Shown piece after piece: positions 43,929 through 61,795 of a stretch of 64,000 bases of DNA. The position numbers were made by a program, and so were the translations under genes. The first letter of the stretch is position 1, and each line of letters starts with the position of its first letter. Origin of the DNA: Desulforamulus reducens MI-1 (GTDB lineage Bacteria > Bacillota > Desulfotomaculia > Desulfotomaculales > Desulfotomaculaceae); assembly GCF_000016165.1 (NCBI RefSeq), contig NC_009253.1, forward strand, positions 2,452,332-2,516,331, written 5' to 3'. The notes under the pieces were generated by a model. That model worked only from the letters and a program-made list of their open reading frames with translations. It made no database searches and was not told the origin of the DNA.

Positions 43929-44828
43929 ATGAACTTATCTACATTGCAAACATTTATTGTTGTCGCCGAAAAAAAGAATTTATCTTTGGCTGCCCAGGAA
44001 ATCCACATAACTCAACCAGCCATTAGTAAACAGCTCAGTGTACTGGAAGCTTACTTTGGTACTGCCTTGGTGGAGCGGAAAGGAAGAGGTGTCAGCCTAA
44101 CCCCTGCTGGAGAGTTGTTCTACCGTCATGCAAGGGAAATGTTGGAACAGTTGAATAAGGCTGAACGGGAAATTCGACAGATGTCTGGAGAAATTCGCGG
44201 CCGCATGATACTATGGGCCAGTACCATACCTGGACATTATATTTTACCCCCCATCATTGGGACCTTTAAAAAGGAATATCCTGATGTGCAAACCGTACTG
44301 CAGATTGGTGATTCAAAGGAAGCCATCCGCAAATTGTTGGAGGAATCCGCTCATCTGGCAGCTGTGGGTATATTGCCTAATAACAAACGTATTGAGGGAA
44401 TAAAATTCTTTTCTGATGAACTGGTGGTCATTGCACCCACTGACCATCCCTTTGCAGAGTTAAATGAGGTACCCATTGAAAAGCTGGCCAAAGAACCACT
44501 AGTATGGCGAGAATTAGGGTCTGGAACCCGATCGGTGGTGGAAACCTTTTTAACTAAGGGTGGCCTTAGCACAGACAAATTAAACATCGCCCTGGAACTC
44601 GGCAGCACTGGTGCCATTGTAACGGCTGTTGAAGCTGGTGCAGGTGTCTCAGTGGTTTCCCGTTGGGCCACACTAAAGGAACAGGCTTTAAATAAAATCG
44701 CTACCTTAAAAATTAAGGATTTACCCATGCAACGTGACCTGTTTTTAGTTTACCCACGACGCAAAAATAGAAGCCCAATGATTGATGCTTTTATTAAATA
44801 TGCATTAAAACAAAATCCCCCTATCTAA
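43929..44828 (+). CDS. LysR-family transcriptional regulator
   Basis: A 299-residue protein from ATG 43929 (MNLSTLQTFIVVAEKKNLSL), with GGTGA eight bases upstream. The winged helix-turn-helix is AAQEIHITQPAISKQLSVLE. The effector domain (about 90-299) has IRGRMILWASTIPGHYILPP and AVEAGAGVSVVSRWA. It resembles CysB/CysL-type LysR proteins found beside sulfur or selenium genes. Its target is unknown. It converges on the UGA-containing NifU-like gene, with 14 bases between the stop codons. Confidence 0.88.
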   Translation: MNLSTLQTFIVVAEKKNLSLAAQEIHITQPAISKQLSVLEAYFGTALVERKGRGVSLTPAGELFYRHAREMLEQLNKAEREIRQMSGEIRGRMILWASTIPGHYILPPIIGTFKKEYPDVQTVLQIGDSKEAIRKLLEESAHLAAVGILPNNKRIEGIKFFSDELVVIAPTDHPFAELNEVPIEKLAKEPLVWRELGSGTRSVVETFLTKGGLSTDKLNIALELGSTGAIVTAVEAGAGVSVVSRWATLKEQALNKIATLKIKDLPMQRDLFLVYPRRKNRSPMIDAFIKYALKQNPPI

Positions 44829-44842
44829 GGGGGATTTATGTA

Positions 44843-45067
44843 TTATACAGATACAACTTCCTTTACTTCTGGAACCACTTGCTTGAGCGACCGCTCAATC
44901 CCATTTTTCAGGGTATATGTTGCACCGGGTCAACCACCACAGGCACCTTTTAGCTTAACCTTAACAATACCAGATGTCTCATCAACACCTACTAATTCTA
45001 CGTCCCCACCATCTCTTTGCAGGAAAGGACGAACTTTTTCAAGCGCTTCTTGAACCCTTTCACGCAT
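44843..45067 (-). CDS. NifU-like Fe-S scaffold with in-frame UGA (probable Sec)
   Basis: [20 protein letters not shown] begins a NifU C-terminal-type domain with GGGGGTG upstream. The cluster motif reads [18 protein letters not shown]: the UGA (44930-44932, codon 46) stands where the paralogue at 45285 has the second Cys of GACGSCPG. Beyond it the frame stays open for 28 codons and keeps full family similarity, giving 74 residues, the same length as the paralogue. A hairpin with a GGUC loop lies 31 bases downstream. I infer selenocysteine insertion; a nonsense mutation or UGA read as Cys are the alternatives. Confidence 0.75.
44883..44898 (-). promoter_or_regulatory. Candidate bacterial SECIS hairpin
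   Basis: On the mRNA, UUGAGC-GGUC-GCUCAA: six base pairs and a GGUC loop, the loop bases used by SelB in the E. coli fdhF element. The loop begins 38 bases after the UGA, at the far end of the usual range. The paralogue has no such dyad at the same place. Confidence 0.6.
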
Positions 45068-45242
45068 GGTTGTTTCACCCCCTTGTTACCCGACATAATT
45101 TAAATATCTCCATTTGGGCTAATCATTATGTCCCAAAAGATTTTTTCTAATTTCAACCTATCTTAAAAATGATTATTTTTTTCTTTTCAGGTGCCCCGAA
45201 CAAGACATGACATTATAGCTCCCCCAAGTTTATGTTGAAAGT

Positions 45243-45275
45243 AAAAATAATCCACAGGCAACTGCTACCTGTGGT
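45243..45275 (-). terminator. Terminator of NifU-like gene
   Basis: CCACAGG and CCTGTGG with a nine-base loop, followed on the minus strand by ATTATTTTTAC. Confidence 0.75.
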
Positions 45276-45284
45276 TTTGGTAAA

Positions 45285-45509
45285 CTAGTCTACCCTTACA
45301 ACTTCGGTTACACCAGGAACTTGTTGCTTAAGGACACGCTCTATACCGTTTTTCAGTGTATATAAAGCCCCGGGGCAACTGCCGCATGCGCCTCTTAATT
45401 TAACCTTTACAACACCCTTTTCGTCGCAATCTACAAATTCAACATCGCCACCGTCTCTTTGCAGAAAAGGACGTACTTGTTCTAATGCTTCTTTAACCTG
45501 CTCCTTCAT
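45285..45509 (-). CDS. NifU-like Fe-S scaffold protein
   Basis: A 74-residue protein starting [20 protein letters not shown] (ATG at 45509, with GGGGGG eight bases upstream; an upstream extension lacks a good site). It is the NifU C-terminal domain with the cluster motif [16 protein letters not shown]; the CxxC pair binds a bridging Fe-S cluster between two subunits. It delivers clusters to target proteins. A paralogue with UGA in place of the second Cys is encoded 218 bases away in the same direction. Confidence 0.92.
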
Positions 45510-45637
45510 TTTTCTGCCCCCCCTTAATTTACTGTTTGTTACTTTCATGATGATTTCATACAGAAATATTGTAAACTATTTCTATACAATTTTACAAGAA
45601 ATATTTACTTTAGTTACCATCTCCTTCTCATTAATGC

Positions 45638-45672
45638 AAAAAACCAGGAAACAATACGTTCCTGGTTTTTAG
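45638..45672 (-). terminator. Terminator after anti-sigma gene
   Basis: AAAAACCAGGAACG and its complement TTTCCTGGTTTTTT; symmetric, so it could act in both directions. Confidence 0.8.
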
Positions 45673-45735
45673 GCATTAATAAAAAGTATAAAACTTTTCG
45701 TAGGTATAAGGGGCACAATCCAAATTTATCTAATT

Positions 45736-46818
45736 TTATATAAGAGTTACTGTAATGAGACAATAGGTACTCCGTTCTTCTATTTGCTTAATCACATTAA
45801 CTTGTTCGGCTAAGGACGCATTGACCTGTGCCAACTGTTGTTGCAACTGGTCATCTGCAACTTCTGTCACCCTTTGTTCCAACTCAGCTTGCCTTTGTTT
45901 TAATGTTGTTAATATTTCTGTGGCTTGCTTATGCTGAACACTCAAATCCTTTTCCACAGGTAAATAATTTACCACTGCCCCCAGTTTTTGTAGGGAACTG
46001 CTAACTATGCCATAGGAATTCCTCGTCACTTTTATTTCCAGGGTACCACCTTCATTGGTTCCATAATAAGGTACAGTAATCGAAGCTCCATTAACTTGGA
46101 CAATCTGGTTAATGGCCTTTAAAGACTCTTCAACTTGATTAACGTCCAACTTCATAGTCATACTGTTTTCAACCAAACCCTCATTGGGGCTGGGTACAAA
46201 GCTTTCTACCTGCTTAGCAGAACTCGCAATTCCCGTTTTAGCTGAAGTTTTGGGAGAATTCTTAACAGCAGAACCATTCTCTGGTTCACCGGAGTTTCCT
46301 GGGGCCATGGGAGAAACGCTGGCATTAGGTTCCTGGCCCTTTGGTGGTTCTGATTTATTGGTTTTGTTTGGTTTTGGTTCAGTTGATTGTGGTTCTTGCC
46401 CTGGGATTGGGATTGTTATACCCTGCTTAGCGGGAGTAACGGGCAACAGAGGGTGTACTTCCTTTTGCCATAAAGAAGTAACCCCCAGTGTCATAACCAT
46501 TACAGCTGCCACAGCAACAGTACGGTACCAAGCACTCCTGGTAATATCTGTAATCCGGGCTAACCAACCCTTTTGTGCTATATTTGGCTCATGTGTCGAT
46601 AAGTGATCAATTCTCTCCATTAGCTTTTCCCGAAAATCAACCGGGGGAGTCAGTTCAGGAAGTTCCTGCAACAAAAGCACGGTTGCTTGGAGTTCTTCAA
46701 ACTCCGCCCTACATCTAAGGCAACTGGCCAAGTGTACCCGTACTTCATTGCACTCTTCTGAATTAAGTACCCCGTCCAGATAAGGGGACAGCATACCTAA
46801 AATATCGTGGCATTGCAC
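45736..46818 (-). CDS. Membrane anti-sigma factor with zinc finger (RsiW-like)
   Basis: A 360-residue protein. The N-terminal anti-sigma zinc finger is MQCHDILGMLSPYLDGVLNS followed by VRVHLASCLRCRAEF (HxxxCxxC). One membrane helix (about 105-122, WYRTVAVAAVMVMTLGVTSLW) separates it from a Pro/Ser/Asn-rich stalk and an extracytoplasmic DUF4349-like domain with a long coiled coil (LKQRQAELEQRVTEVADDQL). It should hold the ECF sigma factor encoded just upstream and release it on envelope stress, probably by proteolysis. Confidence 0.88.
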   Translation of the reverse strand: MQCHDILGMLSPYLDGVLNSEECNEVRVHLASCLRCRAEFEELQATVLLLQELPELTPPVDFREKLMERIDHLSTHEPNIAQKGWLARITDITRSAWYRTVAVAAVMVMTLGVTSLWQKEVHPLLPVTPAKQGITIPIPGQEPQSTEPKPNKTNKSEPPKGQEPNASVSPMAPGNSGEPENGSAVKNSPKTSAKTGIASSAKQVESFVPSPNEGLVENSMTMKLDVNQVEESLKAINQIVQVNGASITVPYYGTNEGGTLEIKVTRNSYGIVSSSLQKLGAVVNYLPVEKDLSVQHKQATEILTTLKQRQAELEQRVTEVADDQLQQQLAQVNASLAEQVNVIKQIEERSTYCLITVTLI

Positions 46819-46832
46819 GGAACATCCCTCCT

Positions 46833-47435
46833 TTACTTAGCTAGACGTTTGGCAGGAGTTATAAGTTCCATTTGCTTACTGATTTTCTCTTTTAAGGCCT
46901 GCCGAGCACGACTTAGCCGGGATTTAACTGTTCCCAAGGAACACCCTAAAATCTCTGCTATTTCCTCATAGGCCAATTCTTGAATCTCGCGCATAACAAT
47001 TATTTCTCGATAGTCATCTGAGAGAGTATTCAAACACGCCTGAATCATAGCCTGGGTCTCACTACGATCCAACATTTCTTCAGGTCCTGGGTCGTTGCTG
47101 CGAATTTCATATGTATTGCTGTTATTACTGTCGCTGGAGTTATCATCCAACGAAACAGTTGGCCTACGTTGCCGTTTCCGCAGTTCATCACGACAAACAT
47201 TCACAGTAATATGATAAATCCAGGTACTAAAACTGGAATCACCTCGAAAATTGGGAAGTGCCTGGTATATCTTGATAAAAGCATCCTGAGCCAGATCCGA
47301 GGCATCTGCATGATTCCCCATTAATCTGTAAGCAATTGTATAAACCTTATTCTCATATAAGCGAACTAGATGTTCAAAAGCTTCTCTATCACCTTTTTTG
47401 CTACGTTCAACAAGCAACTGATCTTCCAGGGGCAA
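46833..47435 (-). CDS. ECF sigma factor, SigW-like
   Basis: A 200-residue sigma-70-family ECF factor. Region 2: YTIAYRLMGNHADASDLAQD and FIKIYQALPNFRGDSSFSTW; region 4: YREIIVMREIQELAYEEIAE followed by ILGCSLGTVKSRLSRARQAL. The zinc-finger anti-sigma gene follows 14 bases later, the normal arrangement. It probably directs a cell-envelope stress regulon. No clear ECF promoter was found upstream, so autoregulation cannot be judged. Confidence 0.93.
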   Translation of the reverse strand: MPLEDQLLVERSKKGDREAFEHLVRLYENKVYTIAYRLMGNHADASDLAQDAFIKIYQALPNFRGDSSFSTWIYHITVNVCRDELRKRQRRPTVSLDDNSSDSNNSNTYEIRSNDPGPEEMLDRSETQAMIQACLNTLSDDYREIIVMREIQELAYEEIAEILGCSLGTVKSRLSRARQALKEKISKQMELITPAKRLAK

Positions 47436-47800: not shown

Positions 47801-47887
47801 GCCGAAGTGGCGGAACTGGCAGACGCACTGGACTCAAAATCCAGCGGTGTAACAACCGTGCGGGTTCGACTCCCGCCTTCGGCACCA
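47801..47887 (+). tRNA. tRNA-Leu (CAA)
   Basis: Acceptor GCCGAAG pairs with CTTCGGC and is followed by an encoded ACCA. The anticodon stem CTGGA/TCCAG holds the loop CTCAAAA, giving anticodon CAA (reads UUG). A long variable arm (CGGTGTAACAACCGTG) is as expected for Leu, and the T arm carries GGTTCGACTCC. Confidence 0.97.
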
Positions 47888-49531: not shown

Positions 49532-51366
49532 ACTTGAAATCGGAAAGTAGCTTCCCGAGCTTGACTTAATCCCTCAAATAACCAAATTTTAGGGCATTAA
49601 ACCACTGTTTTTATGGTCTCTGAAATTCTTGGCGTCTGGAATATGGTATTACTCCTAAGTACCCCAATAAAGGCTAGGTTTTAGGGTACAGTTAATAAGA
49701 CCCCTTTTGGGGGATCAGTGACACCAGATATTTAGGTCGTCCGATGTTTGTTTAACCGGAACTTACTGCAACCCATGCCTGTGTGCAGAGAAATTCTTGT
49801 AGTTTTTCCTTGGCATTTTTCAAAACCTTTTGTAGCCAGGGATTAGGGGCTAACTTTATATGGCGGTAACGGTCGTTGCCTACAATGTTCCCAGGTACAT
49901 TCAGTATTTTGCGGCGGATAGTTGGCACTTCAGCACGACTGTCTTTGCCATCCAATAAGACCAAGCGAAACCAGTTGAGAATGTTATACGATAATACTTT
50001 GAGCCACATAAAGGCTATATTTCGATCCAACTCTGCCTGACTCATTTTTTCAAAGCCTAGACCAACCTTGAGTTCATCAATTTTGTTTTCAATATTGCAA
50101 CGCTTATTGTATTGGTGCCATACCTCCTCTGGGTTGTACTCGTCGCTAGAAGTAATTATCACTTGGTAATCAAATGTCTTTAGGTCAAAGTTAAGTTGCT
50201 CACCAGATACCTTTGGTTCTTGAGTTTCACGGATAAATACAAACCTGCGGGCTTTGGACCATTTAGGCAATGGAGGAGTAATTTCTGCTGCAGCGTAGTG
50301 GTTGCTCAAAGGCTGCCATCGTTCCTGATCATCAAGGTATTTAATGACTTTTTTCATATTACTGGTGAGCTTAGCCTTACAAATATACTCAATGCCCTGT
50401 TCTTCCAGGTAGGCGAAGTTATCTTCATCAAAAAAACCTTTATCCATGCGTATGCCTTTTACGAGGATATTCTGGTTGGCTAAGATCTCTAGTGTCTCTT
50501 TAAGAAACTCCATAAATTGGCCGTTACTGGCGACATTCCCACTATATAAGCCAGCATTGACCAGTTCGCAAGTTCCGGAGATAAACGCTACTTTTACTTT
50601 GTAGGAAGGTCGCCCGTGATACCGGGGATTGTAACCGACTTTTGATCCCTCCTGTTTACCGAAAACAGTGAGGACACTGTCGTCAATATCCAGCCAGACT
50701 TCGCGGGATTGGTCGCATTTGGCCTTTAAGGATAACAGTTCCTGATTCACCAGAGACAATTGGTCTAATGCCTCCTGCTCACATATAAGAGATACAAAGT
50801 TTCGCAAGGTGCTCTCGTCAGGCACTTGTGTTACTTCCTTAATTTTCTGGTACCCAGGATCAGTTTGTAGAGCATTCATATGAGAAAACCGCAATAATCC
50901 CAATGAGAGGGCATCAATGATCGTATCCAACAACTCTGTATCAGAGTATTTACAGTTATGATGCCGCTTAAGAGAGACCCGTTTAAGCATACCGGGTAAA
51001 TCAACAGCCTTCTTAAAAGCCTCTAGTATACCAAAACTTCCATAAGCGGTTACAGACGAATTGTCAAACCTAAGCGGAAGATCGCTTTTGCTAGTCTGGT
51101 GTTGTAGGGAATTTAATTTCTTTTGGTATTTGCGTTCCAAGTTACGTCGTTGTTGACGGGACATAGTTTCAAGTTGATTTGTGGTAATAAGTTGTGATAC
51201 CATCATTTTAGAGGGTCACCATCCTTTGGAATGATTTGGTTTGGTCACTAAAACATTTCCAGCTAAGGAGTGGTGTACCCTTTTTTTTGCTAAAATTTTT
51301 ACACGTAAAAATGACTTTGAAGCCTTGACGTTAGAGGATTTCTAAAAGTTACTTTCCGAATCCAAG
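49532..51366 (-). mobile_element. IS1380-family element, copy 2
   Basis: 1835 bp, almost identical to copy 1 and in reverse orientation, with the same imperfect inverted ends. The flanks are TTAA on the left (49528-49531) and TTAT on the right (51367-51370), so the target duplication matches at only three of four bases. It separates the truncated histidine phosphatase from the 97-residue gene on the right. Confidence 0.9.
49752..51206 (-). CDS. IS1380-family transposase, copy 2
   Basis: 484 residues, the same as the transposase at 8005 except for Leu to Pro in AEITPPLPKW. All motifs (WLDIDDSVLTVFGK, GIRMDKGFFDEDN, RCNIENKIDELKVG) are intact, so both copies may be active. The two inverted copies 40 kb apart could support inversion of the DNA between them. 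Confidence 0.92.
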   Translation of the reverse strand: MMVSQLITTNQLETMSRQQRRNLERKYQKKLNSLQHQTSKSDLPLRFDNSSVTAYGSFGILEAFKKAVDLPGMLKRVSLKRHHNCKYSDTELLDTIIDALSLGLLRFSHMNALQTDPGYQKIKEVTQVPDESTLRNFVSLICEQEALDQLSLVNQELLSLKAKCDQSREVWLDIDDSVLTVFGKQEGSKVGYNPRYHGRPSYKVKVAFISGTCELVNAGLYSGNVASNGQFMEFLKETLEILANQNILVKGIRMDKGFFDEDNFAYLEEQGIEYICKAKLTSNMKKVIKYLDDQERWQPLSNHYAAAEITPPLPKWSKARRFVFIRETQEPKVSGEQLNFDLKTFDYQVIITSSDEYNPEEVWHQYNKRCNIENKIDELKVGLGFEKMSQAELDRNIAFMWLKVLSYNILNWFRLVLLDGKDSRAEVPTIRRKILNVPGNIVGNDRYRHIKLAPNPWLQKVLKNAKEKLQEFLCTQAWVAVSSG

Positions 51367-61698: not shown

Positions 61699-61795
61699 GG
61701 GGAGAACGGGGGTGGTCCCCCCTATGGGCTGCAAACCCATGAGCCAGTCTGCGATCCAGGTTGGAGTCCGGTTCAATTCCGACTTCTCCCCTCCA
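61699..61795 (+). tRNA. Minor tRNA-Cys (GCA) with 8-bp acceptor stem
   Basis: A 97-base cloverleaf. The acceptor GGGGAGAA pairs with TTCTCCCC (8 bp, not 7), followed by T (discriminator) and an encoded CCA. D arm GGGGG-TGGT-CCCCC. Anticodon stem ATGGG/CCCAT with loop CTGCAAA, anticodon GCA. A long variable arm of about 25 bases. T arm GTCCGG-TTCAATT-CCGAC with one bulged base. U73 and GCA are cysteine identity elements, while the long acceptor, tight D loop and large variable arm imitate tRNA-Sec. This fits the reported minor Cys tRNAs of the 8/4 type with a bulge. Confidence 0.75.

Follow-up and report, generated by a model that had tools for sequence, protein, structure and literature searches.

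In the window analysed here, a stretch of 64,000 nucleotides from the genome of Desulforamulus reducens MI-1, two neighbouring genes of the minus strand encode small Nfu-like proteins. One of them (44843..45067, −) is a stand-alone Nfu domain of 74 codons that ends in TAA and matches Pfam PF01106 over residues 5-72 (E=3.9e-29; score 101 bits, cut-off 27). It contains an in-frame UGA at codon 46 (44930..44932, −), at the second Cys position of the Nfu CxxC motif, where the paralogue and 65 distinct homologous copies have Cys. The codon of the first Cys, C43, lies at 44939..44941 (−), and this residue is Cys in 84/84 UGA copies and 65/65 Cys copies. The paralogue (45285..45509, −), 218 nt away, reads GACGSCPG at the UGA site; both proteins are 74 residues long, they are 77% identical and their similarity extends beyond the UGA. 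An initial annotation made from the letters alone had described just such a UGA in a NifU-like frame, and the description proved accurate. All-Cys Nfu Fe-S carriers have CxxC and the UGA gene has a predicted CxGU, and we class it within the Nfu-domain family as a variant with Sec, not as an all-Cys carrier. TGA also serves as an ordinary stop in the window, where it ends 4 of the 37 open reading frames of at least 200 aa; on this ground reassignment of UGA was rejected. Pattern matching places terminator-like hairpins 3' of the UGA gene (44813..44837, −; 10-bp stem) and 3' of the Cys paralogue (45252..45274, −), the latter of which suggests that the two genes are transcribed separately.

Downstream of the UGA and inside the coding sequence lies a candidate SECIS element. 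Its apical hairpin, UUGAGC-GGUC-GCUCAA (44883..44898, −), starts 31 nt after the UGA, with the loop GG at +38/+39. The 6-bp stem is perfect (TTGAGC-GGTC-GCTCAA in the DNA) and uses CGG TCG CTC where the paralogue, which lacks the hairpin, has CGT GTC CTT, confirming a second observation of the initial annotation. Immediately before the apical hairpin, a conserved small hairpin that we call P1 (CCC...GGG; 44900..44913, −) is probably part of the element. Across a comparison set of 84 distinct UGA copies from two classes and 65 distinct Cys copies, TTGAGCGGNNGCTCAA is found at one fixed distance, 31 nt after the UGA, in 83 of the UGA copies; the sole exception, L106, is a scaffold with an N-gap just past the UGA. 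The same motif is present in 3 of the 65 Cys copies and absent from the other 62. With L106, L019 and L177 left out of the stem and P1 comparison, P1 is found as CCC/GGG in 81/83 UGA copies (CCT takes the place of CCC in the remaining two) and in 16/63 Cys copies. Bacterial SECIS elements are described (PMC1088965) as stem-loops shortly downstream of the UGA with a small apical loop and a conserved G, and the Nfu loop, GGNN with its GG kept in 83/84 UGA copies, is of this kind. Rfam gave no match at gathering score within 44000-46000 of the window.

By folding energy the element does not stand out (z = −0.94; of 200 shuffles, 39 fold equally well or better), so that the evidence for the hairpin is its conservation and not its stability. 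Codons 52, 57, 58, 59 and 61 are ACC, ATT, GAG, CGG and CTC in 81/81 UGA copies, and the Cys copies use many synonyms there. Taken as raw proportions over sampled pairs with kinship ignored, synonymous divergence in the hairpin codons 57-61 is 0.00 among 81 UGA copies and 0.868 among 26 Cys copies, a set that leaves out L106 (N-gap) and the Cys copy of genome G002; in the adjoining codons 62-70 the values are 0.774 and 0.860. UGA copies differ at residue 60 (S, V, M or L) and agree on the third base of its codon, a stem-paired G in 83/83. The stem is identical in 77/77 distinct sequence segments and shows no covariation, for which the fixed I-E-R-x-L-K protein sequence leaves little room. Under the codon choice of the Cys copies, the hairpin codons would be expected in about 1.2% of sequences (an estimate that leaves out L019 and L177).

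The SECIS of E. coli fdhF has a small GGUC apical loop about 19 nt downstream of its UGA; the Nfu element shares the GGUC loop and places it at 38 nt. The bSECISearch model has a spacing limit of about 37 nt, which would make the spacing of the Nfu hairpin borderline. The selD gene of the same genome offers a comparison, as it too has a UGA, followed by GUCGCAGGUUCUGCGAC, with a mini-hairpin first and then a stem. Among the SelD genes of the order, the loop of the best stem, small and mostly GUN, begins at +34 in 15 of the 19 genes scored, and a long distance between UGA and loop therefore seems usual in this clade. The 19 genes come from 31 loci, of which 12 fell outside the regular expression used; two further matches proved spurious, and for 4 of the genes scored an upstream hairpin was preferred. 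SelD is an unrelated protein, and its stems (L131-L160) differ among genera by paired changes visible by eye, such as GUCGCAG/CUGCGAC against GGCACAG/CUGUGCC; the Nfu hairpin, by contrast, hardly varies.

The UGA form is widespread. All nine genomes of the genus have a UGA copy, and one further genome of the family, from another genus and 70% complete, gave no Nfu match. In the order, which comprises the same 113 genomes as the class, we counted 75 UGA copies in 73 genomes, so that the UGA and, as described above, its hairpin are conserved in related species, a point on which the initial annotation had made its proposal depend. The UGA form occurs alone in 50 of the 113 genomes, together with the Cys form in 23, and the Cys form alone in 36, with no match in 4; 'alone' here is defined by the absence of further matches at E<=0.001 when this protein is the query, so distant Nfu paralogues could escape, and some of the genomes are incomplete. 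These counts leave out a weak match in G097 (1.2e-7) and take the two pieces of a broken Cys copy in G002 as one. That copy (L008/L018/L019) is frame-broken, and since selA of that assembly, which is 72% complete, is fragmented as well, a sequencing error is likely. Outside the order, in a sample of 398 genomes of the phylum that are at least 85% complete, the UGA copies among the matches listed all belong to family f44; matches were listed down to about E=3e-23 and weaker UGA copies could escape. The class to which f44 belongs has an Nfu match in 18 of 20 genomes and the UGA form in 12. The G+C content of the fetched loci ranges from 37 to 62%. Genomes G051 (at L038) and G048 (at L062) each have two Nfu genes with UGA close together.

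The two forms seem to have interconverted repeatedly. A tree of 83 UGA and 29 Cys copies (the Cys copies of an earlier set; L107 and L168 left out as too short) is poorly resolved over its 74 columns and requires no fewer than 12 switches between UGA and Cys, 4 of them forced by strongly supported branches. Several Cys copies (L026, L176, L033, L039 and L167) are placed among UGA copies and have the hairpin intact or nearly so, and we read them as Sec-to-Cys reversions with a relic SECIS. The presence of the hairpin in more of the Cys copies (3/65) than codon choice predicts fits such relics, and relic SECIS elements after loss of Sec have been proposed for other families (PMC1794560). Ala follows position 46 in the Cys copies L167, L173 and L176, a residue that is rare there among Cys copies (4/65) and common among UGA copies (25/84), and we give these copies the same reading. 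One Cys copy not in the tree, L203 (G043), has an intact hairpin with exactly the sequence found in L094, the UGA copy of its genome, suggesting a recent duplication, a conversion or a Sec-to-Cys change.

A selenocysteine reading needs a dedicated machinery, which the initial annotation had left to be looked for and which is present in full. The D. reducens MI-1 genome (a single contig of 3,608,104 bases) has selA (E=1.5e-187), selB over cut-off, a selD that itself carries one in-frame TGA and, according to ARAGORN, a tRNA-Sec with anticodon TCA (UCA). The window itself contains a tRNA-Leu (CAA, 47801-47887) and a tRNA-Cys (GCA, 61699-61795), the latter of which scores just above the Rfam tRNA-Sec cut-off and is a false positive. 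In the other genomes the machinery search covered selA, plus selD for the order. SelA is over cut-off in 72 of the 73 genomes of the order with the UGA form, the exception being G038, 84% complete. It is also over cut-off in 107 of all 113 and is thus a poor discriminator (Fisher p=0.02, ignoring kinship). Likewise, all 14 f44 genomes tested have selA, as do most genomes that lack the UGA form.

Around the 148 Nfu copies, the most frequent neighbour is an anti-sigma-like protein (67 loci), ahead of an ECF sigma factor (45) and a nitrilase (43); a YchF-like GTPase is found at 30 loci, a LysR regulator at 24 and an acyl-CoA-synthetase-like protein at 23. The names were assigned from sequence, YedF alone having been tested, and adjacent Nfu copies were counted apart. 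No Fe-S or redox gene appears among these commonest neighbours, and none of them points to a client. The anti-sigma-like and ECF-sigma-like genes recur upstream of Nfu, and in the window they lie upstream of the Nfu pair at 45736-47435 (−). Beyond them, at 49752-51206 (−), is a 484-aa protein that by eye resembles an IS transposase. In nine genomes (G035-G042 and G069; L082, L209-L215 and L029) Nfu and selD are convergent and no more than about 2 kb apart. A YedF-like gene adjoins Nfu at nine loci, and one of these proteins (from L082) was confirmed as TIGR03527. The Nfu loci beside yedF or selD mostly have the Cys form (UGA in 2/9 and 2/8, respectively).

Together, these observations make a strong computational case that the gene encodes an Nfu protein with selenocysteine (CxGU) and carries its own SECIS. 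The UGA would be read as selenocysteine by SelA, SelB, SelD and tRNA-Sec under the direction of an element inside the coding sequence, in which a CCC/GGG mini-hairpin would be followed by UUGAGC-GGNN-GCUCAA with its loop from 38 nt after the UGA. We consider it nearly certain that Sec is inserted at codon 46, and very likely that the gene as a whole is a selenoprotein form of the Nfu Fe-S cluster carrier whose UGA is decoded through its own SECIS. The protein may well have remained a carrier, which we judge somewhat the better bet. NFU proteins hold their cluster at a homodimer interface via CxxC (PMC7939391), and because of this a CxGU homodimer would supply a [4Fe-4S] cluster at that interface with ligands from two Cys and two Sec. 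Handover of the cluster from the Sec-Nfu to client enzymes is predicted to follow. The UGA form is often the sole Nfu-like gene found and swaps with the Cys form, which favours a carrier over a new enzyme. An AlphaFold model (C for U, from a two-sequence alignment; mean pLDDT 81.9) has the order alpha-beta-beta-alpha-beta and places residue 46 directly ahead of the second long helix; its best Foldseek matches, the nearest solved structures, are the Nfu domains 2z51 (E=8.5e-8) and 2m5o.

Sec might instead be inserted into a redox enzyme, in which the CxxU would form a selenenylsulfide and reduce thiols or peroxides, or handle selenium or sulfur, without carrying a cluster. As Table 1 of PMC13188914 shows, CxxU is common among redox selenoproteins, and thioredoxin can reduce in vitro the disulfide that plant NFU4/5 form on oxidation (PMC6210436). 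The Nfu gene is, moreover, convergent to yedF and selD in some genomes, although the predominance of the Cys form at such loci speaks against a redox role. The modelled fold is that of Nfu and not of thioredoxin, and in the 50 genomes in which the UGA form is the sole Nfu-like gene detected, a protein without a carrier role would leave no such carrier detected at all. A redox enzyme is therefore unlikely in our view, while deserving to be weighed.

Other readings dispense with Sec. The UGA could be read through as Cys or another residue, by a Cys-charged tRNA-Sec or by near-cognate suppression, and Cys would suit a site at which the homologues have Cys. The full Sec machinery, including selD, is present nevertheless, and near-cognate decoding needs no conserved hairpin, so that we consider such readthrough very unlikely. 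That the UGA is a true stop in a truncated or decaying gene is more improbable still. Long open reading frames of the window do use UGA as a stop, its normal role, but after the UGA (codons 62-70) pN/pS is 0.181 in the 81 UGA copies and 0.184 in the 26 Cys copies, so that selection acts there as in the Cys copies; truncation or decay was rejected on this basis, and the frame decay that could have undone the initial proposal is not seen. Before the UGA (codons 36-45) the values are 0.157 and 0.183. The UGA is also kept across two classes, and a stop at this codon would delete the second long helix of the model. The hairpin, for its part, might have nothing to do with the UGA and be a terminator or another signal, serving for instance a convergent gene, and on the plus strand it is indeed followed by a T-run and was called terminator-like, yet a T-run is found in 10/83 UGA copies in antisense and in 0/83 in sense, downstream genes vary in family and orientation while the hairpin tracks the UGA, and a terminator function, itself equally improbable, was rejected.

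A selenoprotein form of an Nfu carrier would be closest to the known Nfu/NifU C-terminal domains (PF01106), such as human NFU1, plant CnfU/NFU2 and Staphylococcus epidermidis SE0630, with which the UGA gene shares the domain, the fold and the first Cys of CxxC. It differs from them in the replacement of the second Cys by UGA, predicted to be Sec, in its form as a stand-alone 74-residue domain and in the invariant Gly before the Sec position, found in 84/84 UGA copies and in 40/65 Cys copies. HesB-like proteins form a family related to Fe-S carriers. A HesB-like selenoprotein (TIGR01911, motif UxGP) is already a listed family (PMC13188914 Table 1); it differs from UGA-Nfu in family and motif, and may by analogy serve as a precedent for Sec in an Fe-S pathway.

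The suggestion that the protein was possibly undescribed holds for the searchable literature. Table 1 of a May 2026 review (PMC13188914), which gives 119 families and subfamilies, has no Nfu/NifU or PF01106 entry, the HesB-like family being the nearest, and the word 'NifU' does not occur in the main texts of PMC13188914, PMC9312934, PMC12013277, PMC1794560 and PMC1242214. Eight selenoproteins are given for D. reducens in PMC1794560, and Nfu is not among them in the passages covered. We found no report of an Nfu or NifU selenoprotein in the titles or abstract openings of the papers listed in searches of the open-access literature, and no NCBIfam family was over cut-off for the protein of the UGA gene.

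If true, the finding would add to the prokaryotic selenoproteome a family that is absent from the 2026 inventory of 119 and that belongs to Fe-S cluster trafficking. In the 50 of 113 genomes in which the UGA form is the sole Nfu-like gene found, gene callers are likely to give a stub or nothing at this place. The nearly invariant element would be a good subject for the study of SelB-SECIS recognition at long distances between UGA and loop. We give an even chance to the wider idea that the main, and often the only, Nfu carrier of many anaerobic Firmicutes holds a bridging [4Fe-4S] cluster by two thiolates and two selenolates, with selenium tuning the stability or the transfer of the cluster and Fe-S trafficking depending on selenium supply. 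Whether selenolates can be biological ligands of a transferable [4Fe-4S] cluster would become a testable question, for which Sec/Cys pairs found in nature, like the two genes of this window, would provide the controls.
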